DNA from: Halorussus halophilus
GTDB taxonomy: Archaea; Halobacteriota; Halobacteria; Halobacteriales; Haladaptataceae
DNA length: 64,000 nucleotides
Reading direction: 5' to 3'
Assembly: GCF_008831545.1 (NCBI RefSeq)
Contig: NZ_CP044523.1
Coordinates: forward strand, 2,666,001 to 2,730,000
Shown here: positions 8,545 through 30,008 of the stretch, piece after piece
Layout of the letters: the number at the start of each line of letters is the position of its first letter
Numbering within the stretch: position 1 is the stretch's first letter
Notes under the pieces: generated by a model
The model's database searches: none
Told to the model about the DNA's origin: nothing
Seen by the model: the letters and a program-made list of their open reading frames with translations, nothing else
Position numbers and translations under genes: made by a program

Positions 8545-8957
8545 TTGTTAGCGTGGTTTGAGAAATGAGCGCGTTGTAGCGGTCGTGCCCATACGACTCG
8601 CTAACCTGTTCGGAGAGACGCTAGAAACTACTTCTCTTGAATGTTGGCAGCAGGAACGGACGGCGCACGCCATAATAGTCGTCACCGAATACAGTTCTAC
8701 GGAATTTGTTATTAGCGAAGTGCCAGTAACGATGTGCACCAAGAGCAATCTATCAACCGTTCTCCGTTCCCCCACCTAGTTTTTCGATTCGCTGTAGCGA
8801 AATATTCGCTTCGTCGATAGTCTCTCTAACATGAAGTTACGTATTATCACGGAGTGTTTGAGGCTTGGAAGATCACGAACAGTACGTCACTCATCGTGAA
8901 TACCTTGGGAATCCAGTAGATAACTAAGTAGACGAACAGTGCAGAGAAAACAGTTCG
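8545..8957. other. Intergenic region, no gene seen
   Basis: About 410 bp of lower GC content between a minus-strand and a plus-strand gene, so it must hold two divergent promoters. Short A+T-rich stretches occur (for example around 8775-8800 and 8930-8955). Weak frames here lack haloarchaeal codon bias. No repeat or RNA gene was recognised. Confidence 0.5.
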
Positions 8958-10703
8958 ATGTCAAACGACACGCCGACGAACGAACGGACAGAAGTAACCG
9001 AAACCGGAGCTCGCCAGCCGTATATTTCATTTCTCAATGAGCTAGTTTCGGCATTCAAGACTGTTGACGATGCCGAGCGAACCAACGAAGCTCAGGGAGT
9101 AACCAAGACCAGACGTGCGATATTGCAAGAAGTAGGGGCCACAGGTGCCCTTACGGTCGGTATCGGTTCCTATTCTGGACTTGCATCAGGTAGCTCGGGA
9201 GGACAACATCGGTCTTCTGAGCGGTCATCCGATGCTCTATGGAGGTCTAGGGGGCAAGAAGAACCACCGGACTGTGAAGCAATAAGAAGAGAGATATTAC
9301 AAGACCTCGCTTGGGCAAACGACCTCTTAGAAAATTGTCTCAAAGCACAAGTTGAAGCTCAGCAGAAGCAAGAGCAAGCCATCGAAGAGTTCTTCGAAAA
9401 TTTCCCTGAATTCGGTGTCCGACGTGATCCTGTAGAAGGCTACAGTGCCCCGGACTGCACAGGGCTCCAAGAACGCGTTGACGAGCTTGAAGCGGCCTAT
9501 AATCAACCGTGCGAGACACTCGACCAACCGGAAGACGGGGCGGGTCAATCACCCGGTGGAGGTGGTGGACAGGGCCAGCCCCAAACGCCGGAAGAGACGC
9601 CCGAATTACCTTGTGAAGTGGCACTGGATCTGTTCGGGCTCCTATTCGATAGCCTCGGAGAGTTAACGAACGGCTTTCGAGAAGGGTTAGACGGGGCGCG
9701 ACAAGTCCTCGGCGGACTCGTCCCAGTCTTTCGACTCGTCCCACCAGCGGGCGCAGCAATTTCGTCGTGGCTGGCCACGATAGACCAACTCGAAGAACTA
9801 ACCCTGGAAGTGGATGACATGGCAGAGCAAGCAGGAGAACAGGTGCAACGACTTGGAGACTGCGGGGCAGGCGCTGACGGAGAATCGGACAACGGACCAA
9901 CAACGACAAGCGCTCGAAACTCCTGGGATGCGGGTCGGAGCGAAATTCAGAGGGGTACTGAATCGAACAGTGGAGTGTCATCACGGCGTTTTCTGGCCGC
10001 ACAACCCACTCGAATCGAAATCGATTACGAATCGATTGACTACAACTACCGAGAGGTCGCAGCGTTCGACCCGTGGAACCTCCAATTCGACGACCCCGCG
10101 AACCAAATAGAGGCCACCGTTCAAGACCTCGCTGCGAACGCGCTGTACCTCGCATCGACACAATATAACATCGCACTGAGTCTTCGGCGATACGAGACTG
10201 TCACCCGACTTCGACAAGAATTCCAATCGATGGCATATGTCGACTCAGTGTTCGCCTGGTCACTGGCACAGATCGAAATAAAACAAATTCGGGCCATCGC
10301 TCGAAATGCAGCAGACGCTGCGAAACTAGTTAGCAATGTAATCGCGTTGCAGTCGCAGATAAACGCGATCCTACAGGAAGCAGATGTGGAAGATTCGGGG
10401 ATCGATAGTGAAGTCGCGACGGAGGAGTTCACCGAATGGTGGGCAACCGACGAGAATCAGGCGTACGTGAACGAAGTATTTAATCTCACTCCGAGGCAGT
10501 GGTCGGTGTTCGAATCGAGTGTCACTGACGCACTCGCCGATTCACCCTTCGGTGGCGACGACCAGACCATCCTCCTCGACGAGGAATGGGTGACTGCGAT
10601 GGAAGACTACCGTGGGTCGTTCGTCACGTTGGCGGAGACGTTCACTCAACTGCACGCAGAACTCAAGGACTACTGGGCACCCGTGGGACGACGAGGGGGA
10701 TGA
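8958..10703 (+). CDS. Tat-exported coiled-coil protein A1 (paralogue of the gene at 18886-20571)
   Basis: 581 residues. A twin-arginine signal (TRRAILQEVG then a hydrophobic AlaGly-rich run) starts unusually late, at residue ~51, behind a hydrophilic lead. Residues ~105-190 are Gln/Glu-rich and probably coiled coil, followed by a Gly/Pro-rich linker and a GLVPVFRLVPPAGAAISSW hydrophobic segment. The last ~230 residues match protein A2 over motifs such as F-x-PW-x-L-x-F, EA-x2-QD, a Met-x-YV and L-x-KQ-x2-AI. Even-numbered cysteines suggest disulfides outside the cell. The 3' end overlaps the convergent beta-helix gene N1 by 34 bp, a layout repeated in the second copy. Function unknown. Confidence 0.75.
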   Translation: MSNDTPTNERTEVTETGARQPYISFLNELVSAFKTVDDAERTNEAQGVTKTRRAILQEVGATGALTVGIGSYSGLASGSSGGQHRSSERSSDALWRSRGQEEPPDCEAIRREILQDLAWANDLLENCLKAQVEAQQKQEQAIEEFFENFPEFGVRRDPVEGYSAPDCTGLQERVDELEAAYNQPCETLDQPEDGAGQSPGGGGGQGQPQTPEETPELPCEVALDLFGLLFDSLGELTNGFREGLDGARQVLGGLVPVFRLVPPAGAAISSWLATIDQLEELTLEVDDMAEQAGEQVQRLGDCGAGADGESDNGPTTTSARNSWDAGRSEIQRGTESNSGVSSRRFLAAQPTRIEIDYESIDYNYREVAAFDPWNLQFDDPANQIEATVQDLAANALYLASTQYNIALSLRRYETVTRLRQEFQSMAYVDSVFAWSLAQIEIKQIRAIARNAADAAKLVSNVIALQSQINAILQEADVEDSGIDSEVATEEFTEWWATDENQAYVNEVFNLTPRQWSVFESSVTDALADSPFGGDDQTILLDEEWVTAMEDYRGSFVTLAETFTQLHAELKDYWAPVGRRGG

Positions 10704-12406
10704 GGGAAACGAGTCGACGTTCTTGGTTCTTCGCCGATTGGAGAACCAGCCTCCCTCACATTAAGCCACACTACGGGGATTTCGTTCGTTGTGCTCCCTC
10801 GATCGGTCGAATCAGATGTTTGTTCCGTGTGCGGGGTCGTCTGCACCGTCGTCGAAACGTTCAGGATTCTCCACTGGACTGATAGATTCGTGATGCGTGC
10901 GTCGGGACTTGTTTGGACGTAAGTCACTCGCGGGCCTATCCGACGCGGACTCCAGTCCGGTTCAATCTTCGAACGAGTCGTGTTGATATCGACGGCGACG
11001 TCTCGGCCGACGAACGAAACGTCGGCAGCGACGTCGACAAGCGTGAAGTTTTGTTCGGGCGACGAAGAGACGTTGAGTCGCTTAAGATGACTGATGGTGA
11101 GGTTCTGGACTGTGTTAGGAGAGGGGTTGTCAAACGAGAAGTACGACCATCCATTGGTATCGCGAACCATCGTATTCCTGAAGCTGTTGTCACCCGACCC
11201 TCTGACCGCAATTGCGGACGTGTAGTTCCCTTCGAACTCGAAGGCTCGAAGTGTAGTCGTATTCAGAATGACGTCGTTGACGAACTCGTTGTCGGTTGCT
11301 TGAGACGTGAGTGTGATTCCACTATGCACGTTGCCCCATAGATAGTTCCCGATGAACCGATTGTCGTCGGACCCATTGACGACGATACCTGCAGAGTAGT
11401 TTAGTTCAACAGTATACGTAGCTGTTCCCGACGTGTTGACGACGGTGTTGTCGATAACATTGTTCTCGTTGGCGTCCGATACGAGGGCGATTCCACTGTG
11501 CTCGTTGGCCATCGCGTCGTTTCCGCGAATCGTATTCTGACTGGAGTCCTGCATCAACAGAATCCCGTTGAGCCCGTTCTCGCTTGCTAGGTTTTCCGCT
11601 ACTGTGTTTCCGTTCGAATTGTCGGCAACGGTGATTCCAGAGAGGACGGAATTCGAAACTGTGTTTCTGGTGATAACGTTGCGGCTCGAATTCCGGAGGT
11701 AGATACCGTCGTATCGTTGCGTCCTGTTCACCGTGTTATTCGACACTGTCACGCCGGTCGAGTCGAGGAGCGCAATACCGTCGAGTTTGCTCTCGACAAT
11801 CGAGTTGACGGTTGCTGACCCTCCGTCGAGACCGTCCAGAACGATACCAACGCTATTGTTTGTCAGTTGATTCTCCGTCGCCCGAATCCCGGTCGTTCGA
11901 TAGAGACCGACTCCGGTCACCGTTTGCTCTGTCGTCACTCCGGTCACTAGACCATCGGACGTGCCAGCAACAGCGACACCGTACACCCAGTCAGTCGTAG
12001 TTACCGCGGTGACCGTAACGTTCGACGAACCTGTGACGAAAACGCCATGATATGCCCACCGATTCGTCGTCGGATTGGGAGTCGTTGCGGGAATCTCGCT
12101 ATCATTGAGATACTCCTCCGTGATGTTCTCGTCGCCAACGGTTCGATTTCGGAGGACGCTCCAGTTCCCATCGACGACGTGACCACCACCATCGAAGACG
12201 ACGTCGCTCGCTTCGATCCGAATGCACGTTTCTGCAGTACTGTTTACGATATCTCCAGTGAGGACGTACCGACCGGACTCGGTGATCGTGGTACAGGAGT
12301 CGATTTGTTGCGGAGAGGCGTCGGTGTTCTGTTCGACAACGCTGTTCGCACCGGTGGTCGAAGCCAGTAGTAGTCCGACAGTAACGAAAACGTACAGGAC
12401 TCGCAT
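10670..12406 (-). CDS. Secreted NosD-like right-handed beta-helix protein N1
   Basis: 578 residues: signal peptide (VLYVFVTVGLLLASTTGA), then a module DSCTTITESGRYVLTGDI with a second Cys in ETCIRIEASDVV, then parallel beta-helix repeats rich in Asn (SGITVADNSNGNTVAENLA, NGILLMQDSSQNTIRGNDA). This is the NosD/pectate-lyase-like fold, usually carbohydrate- or surface-binding. Many N-x-S/T sequons suggest N-glycosylation. No membrane anchor is obvious. It is a clear paralogue of the gene at 17237-18889 and is convergent with A1. The TAG at 10670 lies inside A1. Confidence 0.85.
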   Translation of the reverse strand: MRVLYVFVTVGLLLASTTGANSVVEQNTDASPQQIDSCTTITESGRYVLTGDIVNSTAETCIRIEASDVVFDGGGHVVDGNWSVLRNRTVGDENITEEYLNDSEIPATTPNPTTNRWAYHGVFVTGSSNVTVTAVTTTDWVYGVAVAGTSDGLVTGVTTEQTVTGVGLYRTTGIRATENQLTNNSVGIVLDGLDGGSATVNSIVESKLDGIALLDSTGVTVSNNTVNRTQRYDGIYLRNSSRNVITRNTVSNSVLSGITVADNSNGNTVAENLASENGLNGILLMQDSSQNTIRGNDAMANEHSGIALVSDANENNVIDNTVVNTSGTATYTVELNYSAGIVVNGSDDNRFIGNYLWGNVHSGITLTSQATDNEFVNDVILNTTTLRAFEFEGNYTSAIAVRGSGDNSFRNTMVRDTNGWSYFSFDNPSPNTVQNLTISHLKRLNVSSSPEQNFTLVDVAADVSFVGRDVAVDINTTRSKIEPDWSPRRIGPRVTYVQTSPDARITNLSVQWRILNVSTTVQTTPHTEQTSDSTDRGSTTNEIPVVWLNVREAGSPIGEEPRTSTRFPHPPRRPTGAQ

Positions 12407-12846
12407 GTCGAGTTTCGTCGACCTTCTCCATCTTTGTTATTCAGCGACGCCCGCACCGAAAGACACGCGCAATACAGAATTCGTTACAGTACGGAGTGAT
12501 TCGCGCTCCCGACAATCCCGAGTTGAACAATCCCAGAGGTCGCGGGAACGTGGTAGTCTTCGATTTACGAACAATCGGCTGGCGACCGTAGGTAGATTAT
12601 CGTCCGTCAGCGCCGCGTGGAATCGACACGTGTCTTTCGATTATCGAGTTGATTCGACCGTACGGAACCGCTCGAAATCGTCGCCGGGGTTCCCGAATGC
12701 GTCTGTCGCCCACGTCAGACCACCACCGTCGGCGGGCCACCATTGCACGGTATCGTGGACGTATCGCAATTCTCGAACGAAGCCCGGTTTAGGCGGTCCG
12801 GAAAGTCATATCGCGACGCACCTGTTTGCCAGCCCGCGATAAGGCT
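12407..12846. other. Divergent intergenic region
   Basis: About 440 bp between the divergent beta-helix gene N1 and the M23 peptidase gene. Open frames crossing it lack a proper start and codon bias. It should contain two promoters; short A+T-rich patches lie at ~12415-12440 and ~12540-12600. No repeats or RNA genes were recognised. Confidence 0.45.
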
Positions 12847-13965
12847 ATGAAAGACGGCGACGTCCAAGACTGTGGATGGACCATGAGGGATCGTAGCACG
12901 GGGCGAAAGACACAGGAATTCAGCAGACGAAAATTACTCAAGGCAGTGGGTGCCAGTAGTGGCCTCGCCGTCGGAACGGGGGTCACCAGCGCTCGGAGCA
13001 GGGGCTCAAGCGAAGCGGTAGCGGAAGCCGATACGCTGGCGCAGGACACGTGCCCGCCGGACCTGACGGGTCGATGGGAGACCGAAGACGGAAACGAGTG
13101 GACACTCGACCACATCGGATCGACTGTGTATGGATACACGATGGGTGACGCCGAATGTGACGGGGATAATGGTTGGGTTCCTACGGGCGATCAGGAGTCG
13201 CCCGACTTGGTAATGGAGGCAACGTTCACCGACGACACGCTCACGGGGACCCAAGAGATCTGTTACACGTCCACCGACGAGGACTGGCCCTGCTATGGGC
13301 AGGTCATCTGGGAAGACTTCGAATTGACGGTTTCAGAAGATGGTCACACGTTGAGCGGCTATTGGGTCGATAGCTGTAACGAGATAGAAGTCTCCGACTC
13401 GCTCACGCGGTGCGGCGGTGACAACCAGCACGACCCCTTAGACGATATGTCTACGCTCCAATCACCTGGGCCTTCAGGATGGCGCGGAGCGATCTTCGGC
13501 TGTTACCGGAGTGGTTGTAAGGTGAGACACAGAGGGTGGGATATTCACGCGCCCGTCGGCACACCGGTAAAGGCTGCAGTCAGTGGGCGAATCACTCATC
13601 GAACTCAGGAGAACAAGGAAACCGGCGAGAAAACAGGGTTCGGCGACTACATTGTCCTTCGAGACAGCGGGTCGAGAAACAGTTTCATATACGCACACCT
13701 CGGGACGCGTAAGCCGGAGGACTACTACTGTGCTGGCGAAGAGATCGGCACGGTAGGGATCAGCGGGAACGCGAACGCTGCCAGGCCGCATCTCCACATC
13801 GAAATCGGCTACAGGAGAACCCGTCTCGACCCCAACGAATTCTTTGAACTGCCGAGTCAAGTTGTCGAACAAGTCGGTTCAGCCCCCAAGTACATCCAAT
13901 TACCCGACCAGTGGAACTGCGTGCCGTGTGAGATGAATCAGGCCTTGCTGGACTTAGAATGTTGA
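12847..13965 (+). CDS. Tat-exported M23-family metallopeptidase (LytM-like)
   Basis: A Tat signal (SRRKLLKAVGASSGLAVG, residues ~26-43) is followed by a beta-rich middle domain (LTGRWETEDGNEWTLDHIG and on to ~residue 190) and a C-terminal M23 fold. The zinc motif HRGWDIHAPVG and the closing HLHIE are intact, with a GDYIVLRD-like strand between them. In bacteria M23 enzymes cut peptidoglycan cross-links. Haloarchaea lack murein, so a surface-protein or foreign-cell target is more likely. Four or more cysteine pairs suggest disulfides. Start 12847 or the ATG at 12883 are both possible. Confidence 0.85.
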   Translation: MKDGDVQDCGWTMRDRSTGRKTQEFSRRKLLKAVGASSGLAVGTGVTSARSRGSSEAVAEADTLAQDTCPPDLTGRWETEDGNEWTLDHIGSTVYGYTMGDAECDGDNGWVPTGDQESPDLVMEATFTDDTLTGTQEICYTSTDEDWPCYGQVIWEDFELTVSEDGHTLSGYWVDSCNEIEVSDSLTRCGGDNQHDPLDDMSTLQSPGPSGWRGAIFGCYRSGCKVRHRGWDIHAPVGTPVKAAVSGRITHRTQENKETGEKTGFGDYIVLRDSGSRNSFIYAHLGTRKPEDYYCAGEEIGTVGISGNANAARPHLHIEIGYRRTRLDPNEFFELPSQVVEQVGSAPKYIQLPDQWNCVPCEMNQALLDLEC

Positions 13966-14019
13966 CCGGCGACGGGATACCGAACTGTTCGAACGGTAGC
14001 AGAAGGCCGGAAAACGAGA

Positions 14020-15087
14020 TCACGGTTCCGGCCGCGCTCCGACAGGTACGTCGATCGACTCTTCTTCACCCGATCGAACGACGGTGAGGCGAACGGTTTC
14101 CCCCGGACTCGCTTGCAGCGTCAAGTACGTAAAGAGGTCGCGTTCAGTCTCGACCGGTTGGCCGCCGAACGCGACGATGACGTCGCCGCCGGTCGGGACG
14201 GAGACACCCCTGACGACCTGCCGACCGCTGCTTCCGCGGAGGGGTCCCGCAGCAGGCCCGTTTGTCGTCACGTCGGTAACGAGGACGCCTCTAGGTTCGA
14301 CGACCCCGTTCGCTTCCGCGACGATTGGATCGACCGTCACCACCTGAATGCCGAGGAACGGATGACGGTACTCACCCCTCTCTATCAGTGCCGGGACGAC
14401 GCGACGGGCGAGCGATGCAGAGATTGCGAAGTTGAGTGCTTCGGTGGGACCACGCGAGAGTACCCCCGCGACCTTGTGATTCATCGTGACGAGCGGCCCG
14501 CCGCTGTTGCCGGGGTTGGCCGCTGCGTCGGTCTGGATAGTATCGTGAATCGTGTAGCCTCCGGCATCGACCGAGCGGTCGACGCCGCTGACGAGACCGG
14601 CCGACACGGAATCTTCGAAGCCCAACGGATTCCCGACGAGAATCACCTCCTCGCCGACCGTCGGATCGTTCCGTCGCAAGGCGAGCGGAGTTGCGTAGTC
14701 TGGGTGGTCTGGTACCCGGAGCACTGCGAGGTCGCTAAGAATATCTGTCGCGACGATTTCGGGGGTTCGCCAGTCGTTGCCTCGGTATCTGACCTCGAAC
14801 GCCGTTCCATCCTCAACGACGTGTTGGTTCGTGAGGACGTGTGAGTCGTCGTAGACGAATCCCGACCCCGATGCGGTCGGCCCGTCGGCGTCGTACGTTC
14901 GCACCCCGGTCACAGAGTCGGCGACGGCTCGATAGATGGGAACGTACTCTTGATCAGAACCCCCTCCCTGCAGTGCTGCGTTCTCCCCGTTAGTTGCGAA
15001 CTCTGTCGATACGCCTCCGATACATCCTGCGATGCCTGCTCCGATTCCGACGCTGACTGCTTGCAGAAATCTTCGTCTGGATTTCAT
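14020..15087 (-). CDS. HtrA/DegP-like serine protease, Tat lipoprotein
   Basis: The N-terminus is a Tat signal with lipobox (KSRRRFLQAVSVGIGAGIAG then Cys22), so the enzyme is probably lipid-anchored outside the membrane. The S1C triad is visible: His in TNQHVVE, Asp in SDLAVLRV and Ser in GNSGGPLV. A PDZ domain follows (ESIDV end; GDVIVAFGGQPVETERDL). It should degrade or refold damaged exported proteins. The ATG at 15087 is chosen because it opens the RR motif directly. It lies 22 bp after the Ala-rich secreted protein gene on the same strand, so the two probably form an operon. Confidence 0.9.
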   Translation of the reverse strand: MKSRRRFLQAVSVGIGAGIAGCIGGVSTEFATNGENAALQGGGSDQEYVPIYRAVADSVTGVRTYDADGPTASGSGFVYDDSHVLTNQHVVEDGTAFEVRYRGNDWRTPEIVATDILSDLAVLRVPDHPDYATPLALRRNDPTVGEEVILVGNPLGFEDSVSAGLVSGVDRSVDAGGYTIHDTIQTDAAANPGNSGGPLVTMNHKVAGVLSRGPTEALNFAISASLARRVVPALIERGEYRHPFLGIQVVTVDPIVAEANGVVEPRGVLVTDVTTNGPAAGPLRGSSGRQVVRGVSVPTGGDVIVAFGGQPVETERDLFTYLTLQASPGETVRLTVVRSGEEESIDVPVGARPEP

Positions 15088-15109
15088 AAATAGTCGAGAG
15101 ACCGTGCGG

Positions 15110-16006
15110 TCAGGCAACCGTCCCGTTCGTCACCGATGGCGGTGCGGGATACTCGATGAGGCTGGTTCTCGTGAAGACGTACGCAATCCGTTCGGTTTCG
15201 TTCGCAGCCAACTGCGAGGCCGCTCCGGCGATCTCGATCGACGGGTCAGCTTCGTTCTCTCCCACCAGGTTCGTCGCTGCCCACGGAGTACGGTGAGTCA
15301 CGTACGAGATTTCGTCGAGGGACGCGTTGAGATTCAACAGCGAACTATCGACTGCGCCCGCAGCAGTGCCCCTCGCGGCTGCTTCGATTATCTCTGGACT
15401 TACTTCCGGGTTTTCGGTAGCACCCGTGACCGCGCCGTGGGCGGCACCTTCGGCCACCTGAAACGTTATTTCGACGATCGCTACCTGACTGGCGTTCTGC
15501 TGTTCGGTCGCCGCCGTCGTCAGGCCCGCCATCGCTCCCTGGACCGCCGCCCGAAGCTGTTCTTCAGTCGCACCGTACCCTAACGTACCGTATGCGACGC
15601 CATATGCCGCCTCTTCGAGGATGATTGGATTCGTCCCGGGATTCGCACCTGCGATAGCCGCTTCGAGGATCGTCTCCTGTTCCTGGGCACTGACCGAGAT
15701 TCCGCTTCGTTCGGTGGCATCGACTCCCGCTTGCACGCCCGTAGTAATCGCCTGGCGCTGCTCGGCCGAAAGCTCGGACGTCTCTCCATCTTGCGTCGTC
15801 TCTTCCTCTCCTTCCGTGGTCGTTTCGGCTTCCTGCGTCGTCTCCTCTTCTTGTGTAGTCGTTTCGGTCCCGTCTTGCTGACCAACCTCATTGGAGCTGG
15901 TCCCCATGGAATTCCCGTCGATAACGGCCGCGCCTGTGGTCATCGCAGCGACGCTGGTCGCGAGGCCGAGAACGACGAGGACGATGGCGAATTTTCGTGC
16001 TGTCAT
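15110..16006 (-). CDS. Secreted Ala/Gly-rich helical protein with acidic Thr/Glu linker
   Basis: A Sec signal (KFAIVLVVLGLATSVAAM) is followed by a low-complexity linker of repeated TTQEEE/TTEGEE units (residues ~50-75). Next is a domain with regularly spaced Ala-x3-Gly patterns (GVQAGVDAT, AAYGVAYGTLGYG, AAVQGAMAGL, GAAHGAVTGATE, AARGTAAGAV), which suggests glycine-zipper-like helices. No anchor is seen. It is likely cotranscribed with the HtrA gene 22 bp downstream and could be that protease's partner or substrate. The ATG at 16006 is preferred over the GTG at 16018. Family not recognised. Confidence 0.7.
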   Translation of the reverse strand: MTARKFAIVLVVLGLATSVAAMTTGAAVIDGNSMGTSSNEVGQQDGTETTTQEEETTQEAETTTEGEEETTQDGETSELSAEQRQAITTGVQAGVDATERSGISVSAQEQETILEAAIAGANPGTNPIILEEAAYGVAYGTLGYGATEEQLRAAVQGAMAGLTTAATEQQNASQVAIVEITFQVAEGAAHGAVTGATENPEVSPEIIEAAARGTAAGAVDSSLLNLNASLDEISYVTHRTPWAATNLVGENEADPSIEIAGAASQLAANETERIAYVFTRTSLIEYPAPPSVTNGTVA

Positions 16007-16338
16007 CGAATTCCCCACCCACTGGTCGACAGTTCACTCCTAATAACCGATTGACAGTTATGGTATCTGTGCGATATTAGTAAGTTTCGACGGTGGATAC
16101 AGAAGCCGTTACGGGTCGTGGAATGGCCGAAACACACTGTTTTCTATCATATCATCCCCGCAATAGCAGCCGGATTGTCCCAGCTTACCGAACTATCTGA
16201 GGGATATGTGAATTTCCACTGCTAAGCCGTCAATCGAGTGATGGTACTGTCACGTTCGAGTCGGCACCGCGAGGAGATACGCATCTCTTCGGAGACCCAT
16301 CGTGGAGAGGTGTGGTACGCCATTCGACAGTGCACTGG
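16007..16338. other. Intergenic region, no gene seen
   Basis: About 330 bp, lower GC than its flanks, between two minus-strand genes; it must hold the promoter of the Ala-rich protein gene near 16030-16080. Small frames are present but lack haloarchaeal codon bias. Confidence 0.4.
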
Positions 16339-17073
16339 TCATCGCGTTCCGGAAGAATAGGACCGAGTCGCGACCAGCGTGCCGAACAAGAGCAACAGTC
16401 CGAAGAAGTCAAGCGGCAACCGTCCCTCGTCTCCACTTCGATCAGCAAACGTCGTTATCGCACCCGCCGGCGTACTCGTTCCCCAATAGGCGCTCCGACG
16501 GTCGGTCATCGTTTCGTTCACGAAGTACGTAGTCGTGTATCCTGCCCCATCGACGACGGTTACATTCCCGCTCACGTCTACGTCCACAGCATTCCAGCCA
16601 CATCTCACGCTCACGACGAAGCCGTTCTCCTCGTTCTCGACCCTCGAAGGAGAACAGTACGTGTTAACCTCGACCAGTCGCCAGTCACTCTGGTTGTGCA
16701 GCGCGTTGTGCTGTCGAACCTCCTCGTATCTGGCGACGTACCGACCGACGTTCTCCATAGTCAACGGAACCGGCTTCGACGGTGGTTCCCTTGGATATAC
16801 TACTTCGGTGTCGTCTGCTCGTACTTGCATACACCTTCGAGAAGTCGTCGTGATGTTTCGAGTAGTCGTCGTGACGTTGGTTCTGAGTTCGTGTCGGTCG
16901 GTCGTCGTAATCGTCGTACACGAATCGGGGGCGACCCGATTCGAATGCGTGTCGGCCCGAACGGAGTGTGCGACCGCTGGTGAGACGGCGGCGATGAGGA
17001 CCCCGAAACTAACGAGCAAAACAAAAACGAACGCTCGTAGTCGCAGGGTTCGCAGTCTCGTGACAACCTGCAT
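16339..17073 (-). CDS. Exported protein with C-terminal membrane anchor
   Basis: A Sec signal (LRAFVFVLLVSFGVLIAAVS) precedes a module DSCTTITTTDRHELRTNV with a second Cys in RRCMQVRADDTEVV. That module is recognisably the same as the N-terminal module of the two NosD-like proteins nearby. The central domain (ENVGRYVARYEEVRQHNALH; VVSVRCGWNAV; YTTTYFVNETMTDR) belongs to a haloarchaeal exported family of unknown role. The C-terminus has one hydrophobic helix (LPLDFFGLLLLFGTLVAT) and a short basic tail, so the protein is anchored with its domain outside. It sits between the mirrored A/N pairs. Confidence 0.75.
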   Translation of the reverse strand: MQVVTRLRTLRLRAFVFVLLVSFGVLIAAVSPAVAHSVRADTHSNRVAPDSCTTITTTDRHELRTNVTTTTRNITTTSRRCMQVRADDTEVVYPREPPSKPVPLTMENVGRYVARYEEVRQHNALHNQSDWRLVEVNTYCSPSRVENEENGFVVSVRCGWNAVDVDVSGNVTVVDGAGYTTTYFVNETMTDRRSAYWGTSTPAGAITTFADRSGDEGRLPLDFFGLLLLFGTLVATRSYSSGTR

Positions 17074-17236
17074 GAGGATGGATTATTCGGCCAGTTTGCG
17101 CTTAGTTATTCGCCGCACTCCTGTCTGGTACGCGCGAGTAATTTATCGATGGAGGAAAAAGTCGTCTGAGGCAACCGAGGATGAGTGTATAGTCACGCGT
17201 CAATAACAAAGAGACTGCCCCCAGTCTGCCTACGGG

Positions 17237-18889
17237 ATGAGTGACCACACCGTACTGCTGGTTGTGAGCGTACTCATGAGTGGCCTCGTCGCACCGGGAC
17301 CCGTAAATCAAGAGACGGGCGGTTCCACCCCCGCCGAAATCGACTCTTGCACGACGATTACCGAATCGGGCCACTACGCGCTCACGGCCGATATTCTAAA
17401 CAGTACGGAAGCTACGTGCATTCGAATCGAGGCAGACGACGTCGTCTTAGATGGTGCCGGACACACCATCGACGGCAATTGGAGTGTTCTCCGCGAGAAC
17501 ACAGGAGTCGGAGACAGCCTCTTCGAAGCGTTTGCAAATGCGACGGAAATCGGGACTGCAAATGCGACCGTTTCACAGTGGGCGTACCACGGAGTATTCG
17601 TGTCGGAGTCTGAAAACGTTACAATCTCCGGATTGACGGTCAGAGATTGGGTTTACGGAATTGCGTTCTTCGACGTAACCGACGGCAATATACGGGGTGT
17701 AACGACCGAACAGACCGCGACGGGTGTCGGACTATTCCAATCAACCACAATCCGTACGGAAGCGGTGGAATCGACGAACAGTACGATAGGCGTCGTTCTC
17801 GACGACGTCTCGGTCAGCAGTGTCACGAACAGTGAAATAAATAACAGCGTTCTCGACGGAATGGAACTCTTCGAGACGACGGGGTCCAGTATCGTTGAAA
17901 ACACGATTCGGAATACGGGGCGATACGACGGCCTCTATCTCCGAAATTCGAGTCAGAATACCGTCCGAGACAACGATATCGGATCAAATACGCTGTCTGG
18001 AATTGCACTCGCAAGGGGGTCGAACAGCAACATAGTGGAGTCGAATTTAGTTGAACAGAACGGCCTCAACGGTATCCTCGTCCGTGATAACTCGGTTCTG
18101 AATACGGTGACGAACAACACCCTCGAAGCGAACGCTCACAGCGGAGTTTCAGTAGTCGATGGAGCGAACCAAAATATCGTCCAAGGTAACGTGATACGAA
18201 ACACGACCGGTGAAGACCCGTACACTGCTCAGGTGAACTACTCCGCGGGAATCGTAATAAACCAGTCCAGTCGAAACCAAGTGACCGAAAATTGGGTTCA
18301 AGGGAACGCGTACAGCGGTATCACGCTCACCAACGAGGCGAACGAGAACTTTCTCACGGGGAACACGATACTCAATACCACAGGGGTAGAAATCACCGTA
18401 CCCGAGACGTTTCGCACCGTCTCAGTAGACCATCCCGCGGCGATTTTCATCGACCGGAGTAGCGAGAACGTCATCCGAGAGACGTACGTTCGAGATTCCG
18501 AACTGTGGTCGTACTACTCGACAGCAGTAGCGTCACAGAACATCGTTCGGAACTTGACCGTCGCGTCTATCAGGCGGTATAACGTCTCGACTGACCCGAC
18601 CGAGGCTGCGGAGTTCTCGTTCGTCGAAGTTGCCACTGTCGTTTCGTTCACCGGTCGGAACGTCGCTCTCGACGCGAACGTTACCGAAGGGATAATCGAA
18701 CCCGACTGGGAACCGAGTCGGTCCGCTCCGAGAGTAAACGAAGTCGGAACCAGCGAGAACTCCACGCTCGAAAATATGAGCGTCCGATGGTATCTAAGAG
18801 CGGTGCCGACAGAACTCGTAGAAAATACGACTAACAGAAGAGTCCGAGCGACTACCACCACCACGACCGTAGAAGGGGAAACAACTTAG
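17237..18889 (+). CDS. Secreted NosD-like right-handed beta-helix protein N2
   Basis: 550 residues and a paralogue of N1 at 10670-12406. Signal (VLLVVSVLMSGLVAPGPV), module DSCTTITESGHYALTADI with Cys in ATCIRIEADDVVLDGAGH, then Asn-rich beta-helix repeats (SGIALARGSNSNIVESNLV, NGILVRDNSVLNTVTNNTL) and a beta-rich C-terminal part ending in a Thr-rich tail. Many N-glycosylation sequons. The fold suggests surface attachment or sugar binding; no catalytic residues can be named. Its TAG stop overlaps by 4 bp the stop of the convergent A2 gene, mirroring the A1/N1 arrangement. Confidence 0.85.
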   Translation: MSDHTVLLVVSVLMSGLVAPGPVNQETGGSTPAEIDSCTTITESGHYALTADILNSTEATCIRIEADDVVLDGAGHTIDGNWSVLRENTGVGDSLFEAFANATEIGTANATVSQWAYHGVFVSESENVTISGLTVRDWVYGIAFFDVTDGNIRGVTTEQTATGVGLFQSTTIRTEAVESTNSTIGVVLDDVSVSSVTNSEINNSVLDGMELFETTGSSIVENTIRNTGRYDGLYLRNSSQNTVRDNDIGSNTLSGIALARGSNSNIVESNLVEQNGLNGILVRDNSVLNTVTNNTLEANAHSGVSVVDGANQNIVQGNVIRNTTGEDPYTAQVNYSAGIVINQSSRNQVTENWVQGNAYSGITLTNEANENFLTGNTILNTTGVEITVPETFRTVSVDHPAAIFIDRSSENVIRETYVRDSELWSYYSTAVASQNIVRNLTVASIRRYNVSTDPTEAAEFSFVEVATVVSFTGRNVALDANVTEGIIEPDWEPSRSAPRVNEVGTSENSTLENMSVRWYLRAVPTELVENTTNRRVRATTTTTTVEGETT

Positions 18890-20571
18890 CCAGCTACGCG
18901 CGACGAACCGAGCCACAATTCTCGAAGGGTAGAACGGGACTCACGGAAGGAGTTGGCCACGGCTCGGTTCCCCGCGGCGAGGTCGCGCATGAGTGCTTCC
19001 CACTCGTCGTCCAAGTACTCCGTCGGAGTCGAATTTTCGATGTCGATGTCGTTGAGTGCTGCGACAGCGTCGTCCGTCCAACCGACGTACACATCCCATT
19101 GGAGCGGCGTCAACTGATACGTTCGGAGCAGTTCGTCTCGATACGGTTCGTCGCTCCACGACTCACGGATTCGCTGTTTTACTTCGTCAGGAGATAAATT
19201 CGAGAGGTCGTCACCGGCTTGCTCCCACGCGGCGTTCACCTCAGGTCGCATCTCGATGGCCTCCTCAAGTAGGGCTACGGACGCTTCGGCGTTGTAGATG
19301 ATCGCACTCATCTGTTTGAGTTCGGCCTCGACGAACGGAAGAATCTCGAAGCGTGGGACGTACTGCATGTTTTCGTACGTCACTCTGGTGTCGAAAGCAG
19401 TGGCGTACCTCGAATAACTTACCGCTAAATCGTAGTCTACGAACACTTGGTACAGACTGTTGCGGACGAAGTCTTGAAACACAGCTTCGGCATCGTTCGT
19501 CGGAGGCTCGAAATCGAGCTCCCACGGTTCGAAGGTTCGAGCTTCGTCGTACGCGTACGATTGAACATCAACTACGTCAACAGTCGGTTGGTCTTGAATT
19601 GCTGTAGTAGTCTCACTTTGTAGTGATAATCGCCTGATTGCTCGCTTGCCCGCGTCTATTTTCTGATTGTACTTCAAATCATCCTGCGGCTCGATCACCC
19701 TGTCCCCACTGAGACAAGCACGCTGTTGCTCTAATTGAGAAATCTGATTTCTCGTTCTTTTTATCATCTTTTCTAGTTCCTTCCGCTGTGCGTACTTGGC
19801 CTCTCGCGTATCCCAAGCGTTCTCCCAGCGACTACCGTTTGGCGGGCGCAGAACAATTCTAGCAGCACCCGCTCCGATAGAGAATCCCCCAATAGAGAGT
19901 TTATTCGTTTGTTCTATCTCTCGCGTAAGCGCATCGATTTCATAGTCTAAGTCTATCAGCTGTTCTTCTAATCGGTTCAATTCCCCGTACAGATGCCTGA
20001 GAGCGCGATTTATCTCTCGTCGAGATTTAACGTTTCTTGGAACGTCCTGACACTCCTCTAACAATCGAGCTAACAATCTCCGCTGTAATTCGTAAATCGC
20101 GTACTCGCCAGCGCAAGACGGCACGGCGAGATACCCACATTCTTCCGGGGTAAAACAATCGTGTCGAACTCCGAATTCCCCCACGAGGTTTTCCTGTAAC
20201 CGTCGGTTCTGTTCCTCTATGTCGGCCTTTCTCCGCATGCAATTGTCGTATTTTGCTTTCGCCTCCCGCAATTCCTTCAGTAACCGTTCCCGTTCCTCCC
20301 GACAACTGAGACTCTGGCGGTATTCTTCACAATCGACCGATTGTCGAAACCTGTTCGACGATTCACTGACGGACGACTCTAACGTATCCGAAGTTGCCGT
20401 AACGTCCCCACTGAGCAAAATCGCTCCTGAGAGTCCTGATTTTAACAAGACGGAGCGCCGAGTCAGTCGGTCTGCGGACTCGCTCGATTCACTTTCTCGA
20501 AACTTGTCGTCTCGACCCGTCGAATCCGGTCGAAACGATTCGTCCCCAGTTTTCGAGGCACCACCGGACAT
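18886..20571 (-). CDS. Tat-exported coiled-coil protein A2 (paralogue of A1)
   Basis: 561 residues. A twin-arginine motif (LTRRSVLLKSG, Arg38-Arg39) with a hydrophobic run opens the mature part. It is followed by long charged coiled coils (REERERLLKELREAKAKYDN; LNRLEEQLIDLDYEIDALTR) with scattered Cys. Residues ~330-561 align with A1: FEPWELDF, EAVFQDFVRNSLYQ, AELKQMSAI and a shared LTPLQWDVY/LTPRQWSVF motif. N-terminal halves differ more. Like A1 it is convergent with, and overlaps, a beta-helix gene. Function unknown; the paired layout suggests that A and N proteins act together at the surface. Confidence 0.75.
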   Translation of the reverse strand: MSGGASKTGDESFRPDSTGRDDKFRESESSESADRLTRRSVLLKSGLSGAILLSGDVTATSDTLESSVSESSNRFRQSVDCEEYRQSLSCREERERLLKELREAKAKYDNCMRRKADIEEQNRRLQENLVGEFGVRHDCFTPEECGYLAVPSCAGEYAIYELQRRLLARLLEECQDVPRNVKSRREINRALRHLYGELNRLEEQLIDLDYEIDALTREIEQTNKLSIGGFSIGAGAARIVLRPPNGSRWENAWDTREAKYAQRKELEKMIKRTRNQISQLEQQRACLSGDRVIEPQDDLKYNQKIDAGKRAIRRLSLQSETTTAIQDQPTVDVVDVQSYAYDEARTFEPWELDFEPPTNDAEAVFQDFVRNSLYQVFVDYDLAVSYSRYATAFDTRVTYENMQYVPRFEILPFVEAELKQMSAIIYNAEASVALLEEAIEMRPEVNAAWEQAGDDLSNLSPDEVKQRIRESWSDEPYRDELLRTYQLTPLQWDVYVGWTDDAVAALNDIDIENSTPTEYLDDEWEALMRDLAAGNRAVANSFRESRSTLRELWLGSSRVAG

Positions 20572-20848
20572 ACCACCAGAGTGCTTTGTACGATTACTTA
20601 GTTATCCACCCGCTTCCGAGAACATTTAGAAAATCGACAACACCTCCTCGGTTATTGAGCGACGAAATACCGGGTTTCTATCCATCCGATCACAATACGT
20701 AGATTATCGACCTAATTCTGCGGAGGCACGCAACGGTCAGTTTGTACCTCTCATGGACCTTGCGACCACGGTCATCTCCGCCGTACCGCGCTCGGTCAGC
20801 CAGCACGGTCGCGGGAGGGGTGGCGGAGGTTATCACAACGTAGTGGTT

Positions 20849-21337
20849 CTACGTACATGAGACCCGGTTAGATTCGATAAGAGATACTGGAAGGTCTTGT
20901 TTCGAAGATACGCTTATTCGGGTGTAATTCTGGCTGTCGGAGCGTCGTTGGAAATAGTTCACACTCACTTTCTCGTCCCAGAAATCAGGCGATGTGATAA
21001 TCACGTACTCTGGGACAGTATTATACCGTAGTGAGACGTTGTGTCGCGCCGAGTGTGAGTCAAGGTCACCAATTGTGACGCCACAGAGTTGTGTCCCATT
21101 GCTTGTATACAACTTAATTTTCACGTTTTTGAAAGTATCCTGCTCGGGTGCTCCTCCTCCGATAGCAATCCGACCATCCATCTGAAAGGTGCCATCCGAC
21201 GACGTAGGTACACCCATATAGGCGACCTCAACTTCTTCACCCGCCGGGTAGGTTGCACATCCTGTGACCAGAGTAATGAGTAGTAAGCCACAGACGGTAT
21301 GCTTGAAGAGTGGATGCATTTTAGTTCTATCATTCAA
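20849..21337 (-). CDS. Small lipoprotein (tandem copy 1)
   Basis: A lipobox (LLLITLVTGC) ends the signal peptide, so the protein is lipid-anchored outside the membrane. The ~130-residue mature domain is beta-rich, with FQMDGRIAIGGGAPE, VKIKLYTSNG, VTIGDLDSH and YVIITSPDFWDE. These are shared, in the same order, with the gene directly upstream (21340-21813), so the two are tandem duplicates and almost touch (2 bp). The start at 21337 favours translational coupling; the ATG at 21319 is also possible. Function unknown. Confidence 0.7.
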   Translation of the reverse strand: MNDRTKMHPLFKHTVCGLLLITLVTGCATYPAGEEVEVAYMGVPTSSDGTFQMDGRIAIGGGAPEQDTFKNVKIKLYTSNGTQLCGVTIGDLDSHSARHNVSLRYNTVPEYVIITSPDFWDEKVSVNYFQRRSDSQNYTRISVSSKQDLPVSLIESNRVSCT

Positions 21338-21339
21338 TA

Positions 21340-21813
21340 TTATGGTGGTTCGTCGGGGAATTTCTCGCTGGGACTGTGCCTCGAGTAGTCCTTGTAGCGA
21401 CTGCCATCACCGGGACGTTCGTACCCACTTACGTACACCTCCGTATTCGATTGCCAGAAATCGGGCGATTCGATGACGACGTAAGCGGGAATAGTGTCCA
21501 AAGTGAGATTGATTTGCTGTTTCTGTGGTGGTCCGTGCGTCGAAAGTTCTCCAATTCGGATACGTCGAATCACGTGTTTCTGTTCGTTATAGAGCACTAC
21601 AGACACGTTCTCGAGCGTCGTATCTGGGGCAGCACCGATTCCGACCGAAACGTTTCCATCCATGAGGAACTGGCCATTCTGGGTTTCAATATCGCCAGAA
21701 AAGTACACATCGTGATGGTTTGCGGATGTCACGCAACCGGTGAAAAAAGTGGCCAATATCAGCATAAGTACTGTCAAAGGACGAGATAATGGCAGTGATG
21801 GATTTTTGAGCAT
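21340..21813 (-). CDS. Small lipoprotein (tandem copy 2)
   Basis: Lipobox LILATFFTGC closes the signal peptide. The mature domain shares FLMDGNVSVGIGAAPDTTLE, VSVVLYNEQ, IRIGELSTHG and YVVIESPDFWQS with the following lipoprotein gene at 20849-21337. It is probably the first gene of a two-gene operon. The short C-terminal tail (SRHSPSEKFPDEPP) is hydrophilic. The lower GC of this pair compared with the surface-protein locus to the left suggests separate acquisition. Function unknown. Confidence 0.7.
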   Translation of the reverse strand: MLKNPSLPLSRPLTVLMLILATFFTGCVTSANHHDVYFSGDIETQNGQFLMDGNVSVGIGAAPDTTLENVSVVLYNEQKHVIRRIRIGELSTHGPPQKQQINLTLDTIPAYVVIESPDFWQSNTEVYVSGYERPGDGSRYKDYSRHSPSEKFPDEPP

Positions 21814-24891: not shown

Positions 24892-25551
24892 TCACTCGGG
24901 GTTGACTGTGTGGCCCGAGAGCGCGTCCCCGAGGACTGCCTTGATCCCTCCACGGAGGCGGGAGCCGACGGCCTGCTGTGAGATGCCGAGTTCCTCGCCG
25001 AGGGCTTCCAACGTGACCTCGCGGGGAGACTCGAAGTACCCCCGGTCGTAGGCAAGCACCAGCGCCTCTAGCTGGGTGTCAGTGAGGATGACTTCGATCG
25101 CCGTCTCAACCGGGGTGAGTGCGGTTAGTGACGTCAGCGTGATCGGGATATCCAGCTCTCGACAGCGCCGTTGAAATTCTACGATGTCACGTCGCTCATC
25201 ACCGCGGACATCGAACGTCCACTGTTTGTTTGTACCGATAGCCTCGATCAGTGGAATCGATGTCTCTGCCAGTACGGTTAGCACGTCATCGTACTCCAGC
25301 GTCCATTCGACGCGTAACAGGTACTCGTCCTCGACAGAGTCGACGAGCCGGATCCCCTGCACGCCGGGGTGTTCAGTGAACGCGCTCTCGATGTCAGCGA
25401 CTTCGGTTCCCCGCACCCAGAAGTAGGGAATCACCACGTTCTGTGCGGGGACGAGTCGTTCCAGCGTGACAGTCACGTCCGGCAGTTGCTTGAACACTGT
25501 CCCCAGCGGGAACTGGTCTGACGGAACCGTGAACGTCGCTTCAGTAACCAT
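24892..25551 (-). CDS. Bacterio-opsin activator-type regulator (HTH-10)
   Basis: 219 residues from MVTEATFTVPSDQFPLGTVF. The N-terminal ~150 residues are the beta-rich sensor-like domain of BAT-type regulators (VTLERLVPAQNVVIPYFWV; LLRVEWTLEYDDVLTVLAET). The C-terminal HTH-10 domain is typical: LTDTQLEALVLAYDRGYFES, then LEALGEELGISQQAVGSRLR. Such proteins activate haloarchaeal promoters. In-frame sequence upstream of 25551 has no family likeness and was not included. Confidence 0.85.
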   Translation of the reverse strand: MVTEATFTVPSDQFPLGTVFKQLPDVTVTLERLVPAQNVVIPYFWVRGTEVADIESAFTEHPGVQGIRLVDSVEDEYLLRVEWTLEYDDVLTVLAETSIPLIEAIGTNKQWTFDVRGDERRDIVEFQRRCRELDIPITLTSLTALTPVETAIEVILTDTQLEALVLAYDRGYFESPREVTLEALGEELGISQQAVGSRLRGGIKAVLGDALSGHTVNPE

Positions 25552-26467
25552 TGTCTGTCCCATGGGCTTCCAGCTGTAAAGGCCTGCTACTGATTGGCAC
25601 GCGTTCTCGTCCACCGTTCGCGGACGCATCATCTCTCGGCCCCGTATTCGGTACATGGTCCACCCCGGCCCAACCAGTGGGTTCACCGATACGGGATCCG
25701 ACGTCGGTACCAGCACCCGTTCTATTCAGCAGTCCGCTCCTCGCAGAATCACAGACGCTCGTACTCATCGCGTGAAATTGCGAGGGCGCGTTCCACGTTG
25801 TGAACAACGCATTTGATGACGAGCTCACGGAACTGCTTCCACCAGCGTCGTGACCGGACGAAGGCACCGTACTTGCGTTTGAGCCGAGAGTTTACCGTCT
25901 CATTCTGACTACGCTGCCCGTAGAGATTGGCGTCGATCCGAGCGTTCCACGCCTTGTGGAGCGACGAAAACGTGCGGTGTGTAATGAGCGGACGAACATC
26001 CTGCTCGTGGGCAAGCGTTCGAATCTTCTGGTCGTCGTACCCTTTATCTCCGAGGAGAACAACTACTTCGTCGGTATTTCGCTTGATGAGCGACGGTGCG
26101 ATTTGCGAGTCGTGTTTCCGTGTCGTCGTCACGTGTACGTCGATAATCGCGTTCGCTCTCGTGTCTACGAGAAGCGTGACTTTCAACTGCTGAATCGTCA
26201 ATTTCGTTCGCTTCGTGTAGTGTGTTGAGGCATGACTGCGGTCGAACCCGGAGGCGTCGATCCCGACGATACCGTTGGTCGGGAGAAGCGTAACGGAGAG
26301 GTTGAGGAGAACCCGCCAGACAGCCATATTGAGCCGGTTGAACGCGTTACACAACGTCGAAGGAGAGGGGAGTTCTTCAAGATCGATGGCACGTCGAATC
26401 CGAGGCATCTCGATGAGTTCGTCGAGAAGCATCCGATACGTCGTGTTCTTCCGGACTTTGAGGCAGA

Positions 26468-28727: not shown

Positions 28728-29984
28728 TTAACTGACACCACTGACACCGACCCACTGGTACTTCCCGTTCCGGCCAGCTATCACAGTACAATAATCCGCT
28801 ACAGTAAGCCGATACAGATCCCCTTCAGCCCGTACGCTCTGAACGTGCTTCGTAGAGTTGAACCCATCCTTGGTCGTTCGAACATAGATCTGCCATACTC
28901 CCCGGCGCCGAGAATACCGTGGTTTGATTCCGAGTTCGAGACACAGCCGAAGTACGTCGTTTGCAAGCTGTGTGCTTGCGGTATAGTACGTCTGGCGGTC
29001 GTTCCCATCCCCGCAGAGTAGAACGTCGAGAAGCAGTCGTTGTTGGTCTTCGTGAAGATCCCAGACGAACTGTGGAAGCCGTTTGTTGTGACTGCCACGT
29101 CCACAGAGGGCTTCGAACAGGCGACCGAATACCTTCGAACTGAACCCCGAATAACTCTCGTTACTGTAGCTGAGTAGTCCCATGCGCTCCAGTAGGTCTC
29201 GGATAGACTGGCGATATCGGTCGTCGTTCTGTGCGAGTTTGACTTGTGCGGTGTCACTGCTCTTCGACCAGTGCACAGACCCCTCGGTGACGAACCAGCC
29301 GAGGAACTGGATGAAGTCATCCCCATCGAAGCGATAGGGTCGTCGATGATGGTTCGGGCCGTGGCGTATCGTCACGTCCTCTGCGATAGCTTCGATCTCG
29401 GTCTGGTACTGTTTGAACGTCTCCGCGTCGAAGTGATAGCCAGTGTGACCGTTGTTCCGAACTGGTTCGCAGCCGTCTGGGAGGGCTGCTCGTACCGTAT
29501 GTCCGTGCTCCTCGAAGGAGGCGGAAATCTCGTAGTCGTCTACGAAGTCTGTGATGTCCACCGTATCGAGACGACGACCGGGGCGTCGTCGCCAGTCGTT
29601 GATGAACTTGTAGTAGGCTCGTTCGTGGAGGCTGTCAGCCCGCTTGAATCGCACCTCAGTATTTGCTTTCGTACAGTAGGGGATACGATGGTCTGGTGCT
29701 ACTCGAAGGTCTGCGCGCTTCGTTTCGAGTGCGACGAGTTCGCCGTCGAATGGGACGCGCTCTATCTTCGTGACCAGCTTCAGTTTGATGAGTTTCGTTG
29801 TCGGGTCAAGCGCGTACACGAGTGTTCCAACGGTGAGGTCACCCACTCCGACTGGACCCTCCGCCGTGAAGATATTCGTATCTGCGCTGAATCCACCGTT
29901 CGAAAGGTTGAGAGCCTCAGGTCCTGATTCAGGGAAGGGAGGGTTCGTTCTAACTAACTCGACTTGTTCTGTGTTGGATTCCAT
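28728..29984 (-). CDS. Freestanding Hint / LAGLIDADG homing-endonuclease-like protein
   Basis: The N-terminal ~90 residues are intein-like: ADTNIFTAEGPVGVGDL (block A), and RVAPDHRIPY (block B-like). Then two LAGLIDADG-type helices appear, FIQFLGWFVTEGS and RLLLDVLLCGDGND. Last is a block F-like strand LYRLTVADYCTVIAGRNG. The residue preceding FSADT is Gly where inteins have Cys1, and there is no terminal His-Asn, so protein splicing looks lost. No extein flanks it. Proteins of this kind are presumed mobile endonucleases. The ATG at 29984 is preferred to the GTG at 29993. Confidence 0.75.
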   Translation of the reverse strand: MESNTEQVELVRTNPPFPESGPEALNLSNGGFSADTNIFTAEGPVGVGDLTVGTLVYALDPTTKLIKLKLVTKIERVPFDGELVALETKRADLRVAPDHRIPYCTKANTEVRFKRADSLHERAYYKFINDWRRRPGRRLDTVDITDFVDDYEISASFEEHGHTVRAALPDGCEPVRNNGHTGYHFDAETFKQYQTEIEAIAEDVTIRHGPNHHRRPYRFDGDDFIQFLGWFVTEGSVHWSKSSDTAQVKLAQNDDRYRQSIRDLLERMGLLSYSNESYSGFSSKVFGRLFEALCGRGSHNKRLPQFVWDLHEDQQRLLLDVLLCGDGNDRQTYYTASTQLANDVLRLCLELGIKPRYSRRRGVWQIYVRTTKDGFNSTKHVQSVRAEGDLYRLTVADYCTVIAGRNGKYQWVGVSGVS

Positions 29985-29985
29985 G

Positions 29986-30008
29986 CGGCCCACCCCTGGG
30001 TGGCCGCA
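29986..30008 (-). promoter_or_regulatory. Leader palindrome (possible family member g)
   Basis: On the minus strand a TATA-like TTTATATT (30009-30016) is followed by GCGGCC-ACCCAGGGG-TGGGCCGC and then directly by the ATG of the Hint/LAGLIDADG gene. The GGGGTG core and the T-rich block ahead of the stem resemble the leader hairpins at 46-57 kb, although the distance to the start codon is shorter. It could be a repressor site or 5' UTR hairpin. Confidence 0.45.

Follow-up and report, generated by a model that had tools for sequence, protein, structure and literature searches.

Two genes for exported proteins, a predicted helical protein (A) and a right-handed beta-helix protein (N), occur twice as a tail-to-tail pair in the 64 kb window, the whole 64,000-nucleotide stretch of DNA analysed here, and the junction recurs on a plasmid of a second genus. 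As the pair was found in only one other genome and all its genes have a promoter-like motif in common, the two proteins are likely to act together at the cell surface. The best explanation, held tentatively and at slightly less than an even chance, is a co-regulated and co-inherited exported module at the cell surface, with N as its glycan-facing part and A as its scaffold. The preliminary description had proposed a functional unit, maybe a surface adhesin with its partner, protected by the enclosed proteases. The unit draws support from co-distribution, from the second-genus junction and from a common promoter-like motif, and an adhesin with a partner is a possible identity for it, whereas the protease part is not supported.

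Gene pairs in the window and in Haladaptatus

The mirrored layout A1>-<N1 ... N2>-<A2, as first described, agrees exactly with the positions of the open reading frames (Table 1), with tail-to-tail overlaps of 34 bp between A1 and N1 (10670-10703) and 4 bp between N2 and A2 (18886-18889). A1 and A2 align over 553 columns, nearly their full length, with 27% identity (E 4e-37), and the last ~230 residues, already singled out in that description, are the best-matching part of the alignment. N1 and N2 share 47% identity over 524 columns (E 3e-153); the signal, the SCTTIT module and the repeats are shared as claimed, but the likeness is not limited to these, almost the whole protein being common to both. 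These identities indicate a duplication that is real and old. A1 and A2 are the only A genes of the genome, and the N family is represented by about ten SCTTIT/beta-helix genes. Next to A2, two adjacent, similar-looking lipoprotein-type genes with a lipobox (...TGC), at 20849-21337 and 21340-21813 on the minus strand, appear to be a tandem duplicate. The start of the protein encoded at 28728-29993 on the minus strand looks Hint/intein-like (GGFSADTNIFTAEG...).

Table 1. Genes of the two pairs, P5 and promoter-like motif sites in the window
Feature	Coordinates	Strand	Description
A1	8958..10703	+	581 aa; Tat-exported (putative) cysteine-bearing helical protein; family-specific C-terminal domain, last ~230 aa
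N1	10670..12406	-	578 aa; Sec-type signal peptide; SCTTIT...TCIRI two-cysteine cap; right-handed beta-helix; family-specific C-terminal domain
N2	17237..18889	+	550 aa; N1 paralogue, 47% identical; predicted beta-helix residues ~33-380
A2	18886..20571	-	561 aa; A1 paralogue, 27% identical; all-helical low-confidence model
P5	16339..17073	-	244 aa; signal peptide; SCTTIT two-cysteine module; C-terminal hydrophobic anchor; divergent from N2
Promoter-like motif GATAACTAAG	8919..8928	+	29 nt before A1 start
Promoter-like motif AATAACAAAG	12432..12441	-	25 nt before N1 start
Promoter-like motif AATAACTAAG	17101..17110	-	27 nt before P5 start
Promoter-like motif AATAACAAAG	17202..17211	+	25 nt before N2 start
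Promoter-like motif GATAACTAAG	20597..20606	-	25 nt before A2 start

For both C-terminal domains, that of A and that of N, strong matches (E below 1e-50) are confined to the same 2 of the 392 genomes of the order. The only other carrier of A in the family is plasmid unnamed3 of Haladaptatus pallidirubidus (NZ_CP085304), which was also reached through the plasmid-collection search. Two motif-based scans covered 84,980 species genomes, a type of scan from which the genome of origin may be excluded; one returned nothing and the other matched the H. pallidirubidus plasmid only.

Gene order on this plasmid is A-fragment> <N <A. The fragment corresponds to the final ~110 residues of an A gene and contains one internal TAG, with sequence resembling a transposase remnant on its left. 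Its frame stops at 13828-13830 and the N gene (HpN) at 13796 of the H. pallidirubidus stretch, producing a 35 bp tail-to-tail overlap, while the intact A gene (HpA) lies ~195 bp upstream of HpN on the same strand. All three N proteins of the subfamily adjoin an A gene or fragment tail to tail, overlapping it by 4-35 bp. The plasmid layout indicates that A and N stay linked in different genera and that the tail-to-tail junction recurs, with convergence not being obligatory. Since the intact A gene is co-directional with N, the convergent layout is itself probably not the functional point, and the best explanation treats the overlap as compact packing with no mechanism behind it. The preliminary description had held that homologues rarely adjacent elsewhere would refute the pairing; adjacency was observed in both of the independent genomes available, as two pairs in the genome of origin and once on the H. 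pallidirubidus plasmid, and the idea survived on the strength of one other genome. An attractive derivation of the plasmid layout is loss of the middle of an ancestral mirrored layout, in which deletion from after N1 through N2 yields A> <N <A; in the N tree, however, N1 and N2 group together (90/87), and the A tree lacks resolution (44/0).

Both genera have related helix-turn-helix regulators, 39% identical, in the vicinity of the A-N locus (window 24892-25716, minus strand; L022 18344-18976 and 19096-19806). This regulator family is common in haloarchaea, so the proximity may be due to chance. In H. pallidirubidus, a related NosD gene sits in a cluster of glycosyltransferase, deacetylase and glycoside hydrolase genes. 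At another locus (L091), a SCTTI-type beta-helix gene with the exact motif (8829-10238, plus strand) converges on a gene for a different Tat-signal protein (10271-11122, minus strand) at a distance of 32 bp, possibly an unrelated parallel of the A-N layout.

The occurrence of the module in two genomes only means that its co-inheritance could reflect one linked transfer. In the main rival reading, A and N would be independent exported proteins of an accessory surface-gene island, having a promoter type in common and not binding each other, their adjacency being one ancient arrangement followed by duplication. This reading is somewhat unlikely, as each N of the subfamily retains its neighbouring A and both members were kept through the old duplication, after which the A copies are 27% and the N copies 47% identical. 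It accords with the absence of the block from the other 17 searched genomes of the genus, with flanking genes that have no conserved neighbourhood there, with a GC content below that of the genes to the left, with the location of the H. pallidirubidus copy on a plasmid beside a transposase-like remnant, and with a motif that is not exclusive to the pair. A conserved insertion site within the genus was rejected, the flanking genes not being syntenic.

A shared promoter-like motif

Comparison of the regions upstream of window genes exposed the ten-base motif RATAACWAAG, which matches the 64 kb window exactly at 5 places where shuffles give 0.15; the shuffle figure exaggerates the significance, because the pattern was drawn from those same five sites. 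All five lie 25-29 nt ahead of the starts of A1, N1, P5, N2 and A2, and none of the other window genes tested comes under two mismatches to the motif. Independent checks are provided by the second genus and by a genome-wide reversed control. In H. pallidirubidus the motif is exact before HpA and carries two mismatches before HpN, ~23-27 nt from the starts. Genome-wide, RATAACWAAG has 28 sites, compared with 6 for the reversed pattern, and these sites often stand ~25 nt ahead of start codons. On these counts the motif would be a small promoter class and no private operator; an exclusive A-N operator was rejected in view of the 23 other genomic sites. Its position fits a putative role as core promoter of a nearly leaderless transcript.

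Several of the further sites stand before genes of envelope or glycan type, encoding two FemAB-type GNATs, a third GNAT, an arylsulfotransferase and a DUF1616 protein. Genes for a Tat solute-binding protein and for another SCTTIT-type beta-helix protein bear the motif as well. The motif also precedes genes of no obvious surface role, namely two DUF7344 regulators and a DUF378 gene, and its association with glycan genes comes from visual inspection. Similar genes in Haladaptatus retain the motif (L184 versus L175, and L194 versus L167).

Among the genes enclosed by the two pairs, P5 has the SCTTIT two-cysteine module and no beta-helix, and on its motif it would belong to the A-N unit. Neither the M23 peptidase gene nor the genes of the HtrA-like lipoprotein and of P8 have the motif in front of them. 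Full-length relatives of the M23 gene are missing from all 27 other genomes of the family, and the 40 kb of Haladaptatus plasmid sequence that was read matches none of these genes. Lacking both the motif and second-locus relatives, the enclosed proteases fall outside the conserved part. The suggestion that they protect the unit was accordingly abandoned, neither M23 nor HtrA carrying the motif, relatives of M23 being missing at full length from the family, and neither being represented in the stretches of Haladaptatus that were compared.

The N and A proteins

N is a NosD/beta-helix protein by Pfam (E down to 5e-47). Against PF05048 and PF13229, N1 scores 160 and 104 bits and N2 101 and 91 bits, well above the cut-offs of 25.9 and 23.6. 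The AlphaFold model of N2 is a confident right-handed beta-helix over residues ~33-380 with an unreliable C-terminus, and its fold matches comprise alginate epimerases, DFA-IIIase, polysaccharide lyases, phage tailspikes and NosD. N1, N2 and HpN each contain exactly two cysteines, both in the N-terminal module, a constancy in all three proteins that suggests a disulfide-capped start. The three form one clade (support 100/99) with its own C-terminal domain of ~120 residues, for which full-length matches occur only next to A. The fold of N is thus a known one, and its proteins make up a separate clade within it.

The best solved relative of N by sequence is the alginate C5 epimerase AlgG (E 3e-12). 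Together with the fold matches to epimerases, DFA-IIIase and lyases, and with the NosD gene inside the H. pallidirubidus polysaccharide cluster, this match raises the alternative that N is an active epimerase- or lyase-type enzyme acting on an acidic surface polysaccharide, with A as a secreted co-factor or substrate-presenting protein. Catalysis by N is doubtful because the DPHD catalytic motif of AlgG is missing, the aligned N profile reading Gi-e-l-l-D against GIDPHD in AlgG, and N scores 29 and 33 bits with the AlgG equivalog NF038177, whose cut-off is 700. An enzymatic N is accordingly considered improbable.

The A proteins A1, A2 and HpA conserve a twin-arginine signal, TRR[SA].L, by which they qualify as putative Tat substrates. 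Among the weak off-target matches of the A profile in the order, most of those read are Tat signal peptides of unrelated haloarchaeal proteins, which supports the Tat export signal ascribed to A at the outset; the generic TIGR01409 Tat model gave no report for A. Searches of Pfam, NCBIfam, PHROG and PDB gave no family match above coiled-coil noise, which leaves A unclassified with respect to these libraries. The A2 model consists of helices throughout and has low confidence (mean pLDDT 56.5), and no solved or viral structure is significantly similar to this low-confidence model. A2 contains a hydrophobic stretch flanked by long helices, A1 has a similar one, and in HpA it is weak.

Long helices around a hydrophobic stretch in A2, and the similar stretch in A1, recall a secreted pore-forming or antagonistic helical toxin, for which N would serve as carrier, receptor-binding or protective partner. 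Fold comparison of the low-confidence A model lists alpha-pore-forming toxins alongside coiled coils, but the toxin matches are weak and non-significant, with E >1 and probability ~0.2 or less for toxins of the XaxA/ClyA type, and the same lists contain spectrins and chemoreceptors. In NCBIfam, A matches a xenorhabdolysin subunit weakly (E 0.007), scoring 15.7 bits where the cut-off is 125. With the weak stretch in HpA and no immunity-like cytoplasmic gene in the unit, a toxin role is very improbable. Viral or phage origin was rejected, there being no A relatives in viral contigs or phage records, no N relatives in viral contigs and only coiled-coil noise in PHROG. A defence system was likewise rejected, the comparison of A with LmuB yielding only coiled-coil noise and HtrA only generic trypsin matches.

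Proposed surface module and comparison with known systems

In the favoured explanation, a co-regulated and co-inherited A-N module, N would be secreted unfolded via Sec and would fold outside the cell into a disulfide-capped right-handed beta-helix, binding or, less likely, modifying the cell's own surface polysaccharide or exopolysaccharide. A would leave the cell already folded, via Tat, as a helical rod stabilised by disulfides. Through its conserved C-terminal domain it would probably contact the C-terminal domain specific to the N family; in this extracellular assembly A would serve as spacer or scaffold, with N facing the glycan. The two diverged copies and the anchored P5 would be switched on together from RATAACWAAG promoters. 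The proposed polysaccharide link draws on the fold of N, on the other motif-bearing genes and on the NosD gene in the H. pallidirubidus glycosyltransferase cluster; searches of the literature on haloarchaeal NosD, Halorussus beta-helix proteins, exopolysaccharide clusters and DUF7344 brought up nothing relevant. A stronger form of the proposal, which we regard as unlikely, is a new two-protein haloarchaeal extracellular apparatus. Its helical scaffold would travel by Tat and its glycan-facing beta-helix protein by the separate Sec route, and the two would assemble outside the cell through dedicated C-terminal domains. Their genes would belong to a small envelope regulon united by a core-promoter element, and each cell would keep two specialised versions.

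If true, the proposal would give one clade of the abundant and unexplained haloarchaeal secreted proteins of SCTTIT/NosD type its first partner, would bring a Tat substrate and a Sec substrate together in a single complex outside the cell and would point to a small RATAACWAAG regulon. If A and N do not interact, the pair would still be a cleanly delimited accessory surface module, though an ordinary one.

The promoter consensus given for haloarchaea is TTWT/CGAAA (PMC4983044), which differs in sequence from RATAACWAAG. NosD of the NosDFY copper system (PDB 7o0y, 7osf) resembles N by beta-helix fold match, but N adjoins no nosF or nosY transporter genes and is encoded with no ABC transporter; the NosF and NosY genes that accompany a NosD copper-maturation protein were found neither among the immediate window neighbours, by reading of the open reading frames, nor among the annotated genes of the H. 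pallidirubidus locus. AlgG/AlgE and the polysaccharide lyases resemble N in the right-handed beta-helix fold and in local sequence, whereas N is without DPHD, stays far under the equivalog cut-off and has a different C-terminal domain. Haloarchaeal Tat-exported coiled-coil hypothetical proteins are like A in the usual haloarchaeal form of the Tat signal, while the C-terminal domain of A is known from two genomes only. With haloarchaeal secreted NosD/Beta_helix proteins (PF05048, PF13229) that have the SCTTI module, N1 and N2 have in common the repeats, the signal peptide and the SCTTIT...TCIRI cap, while N1, N2 and HpN are set apart from these by a clade and a C-terminal domain of their own.
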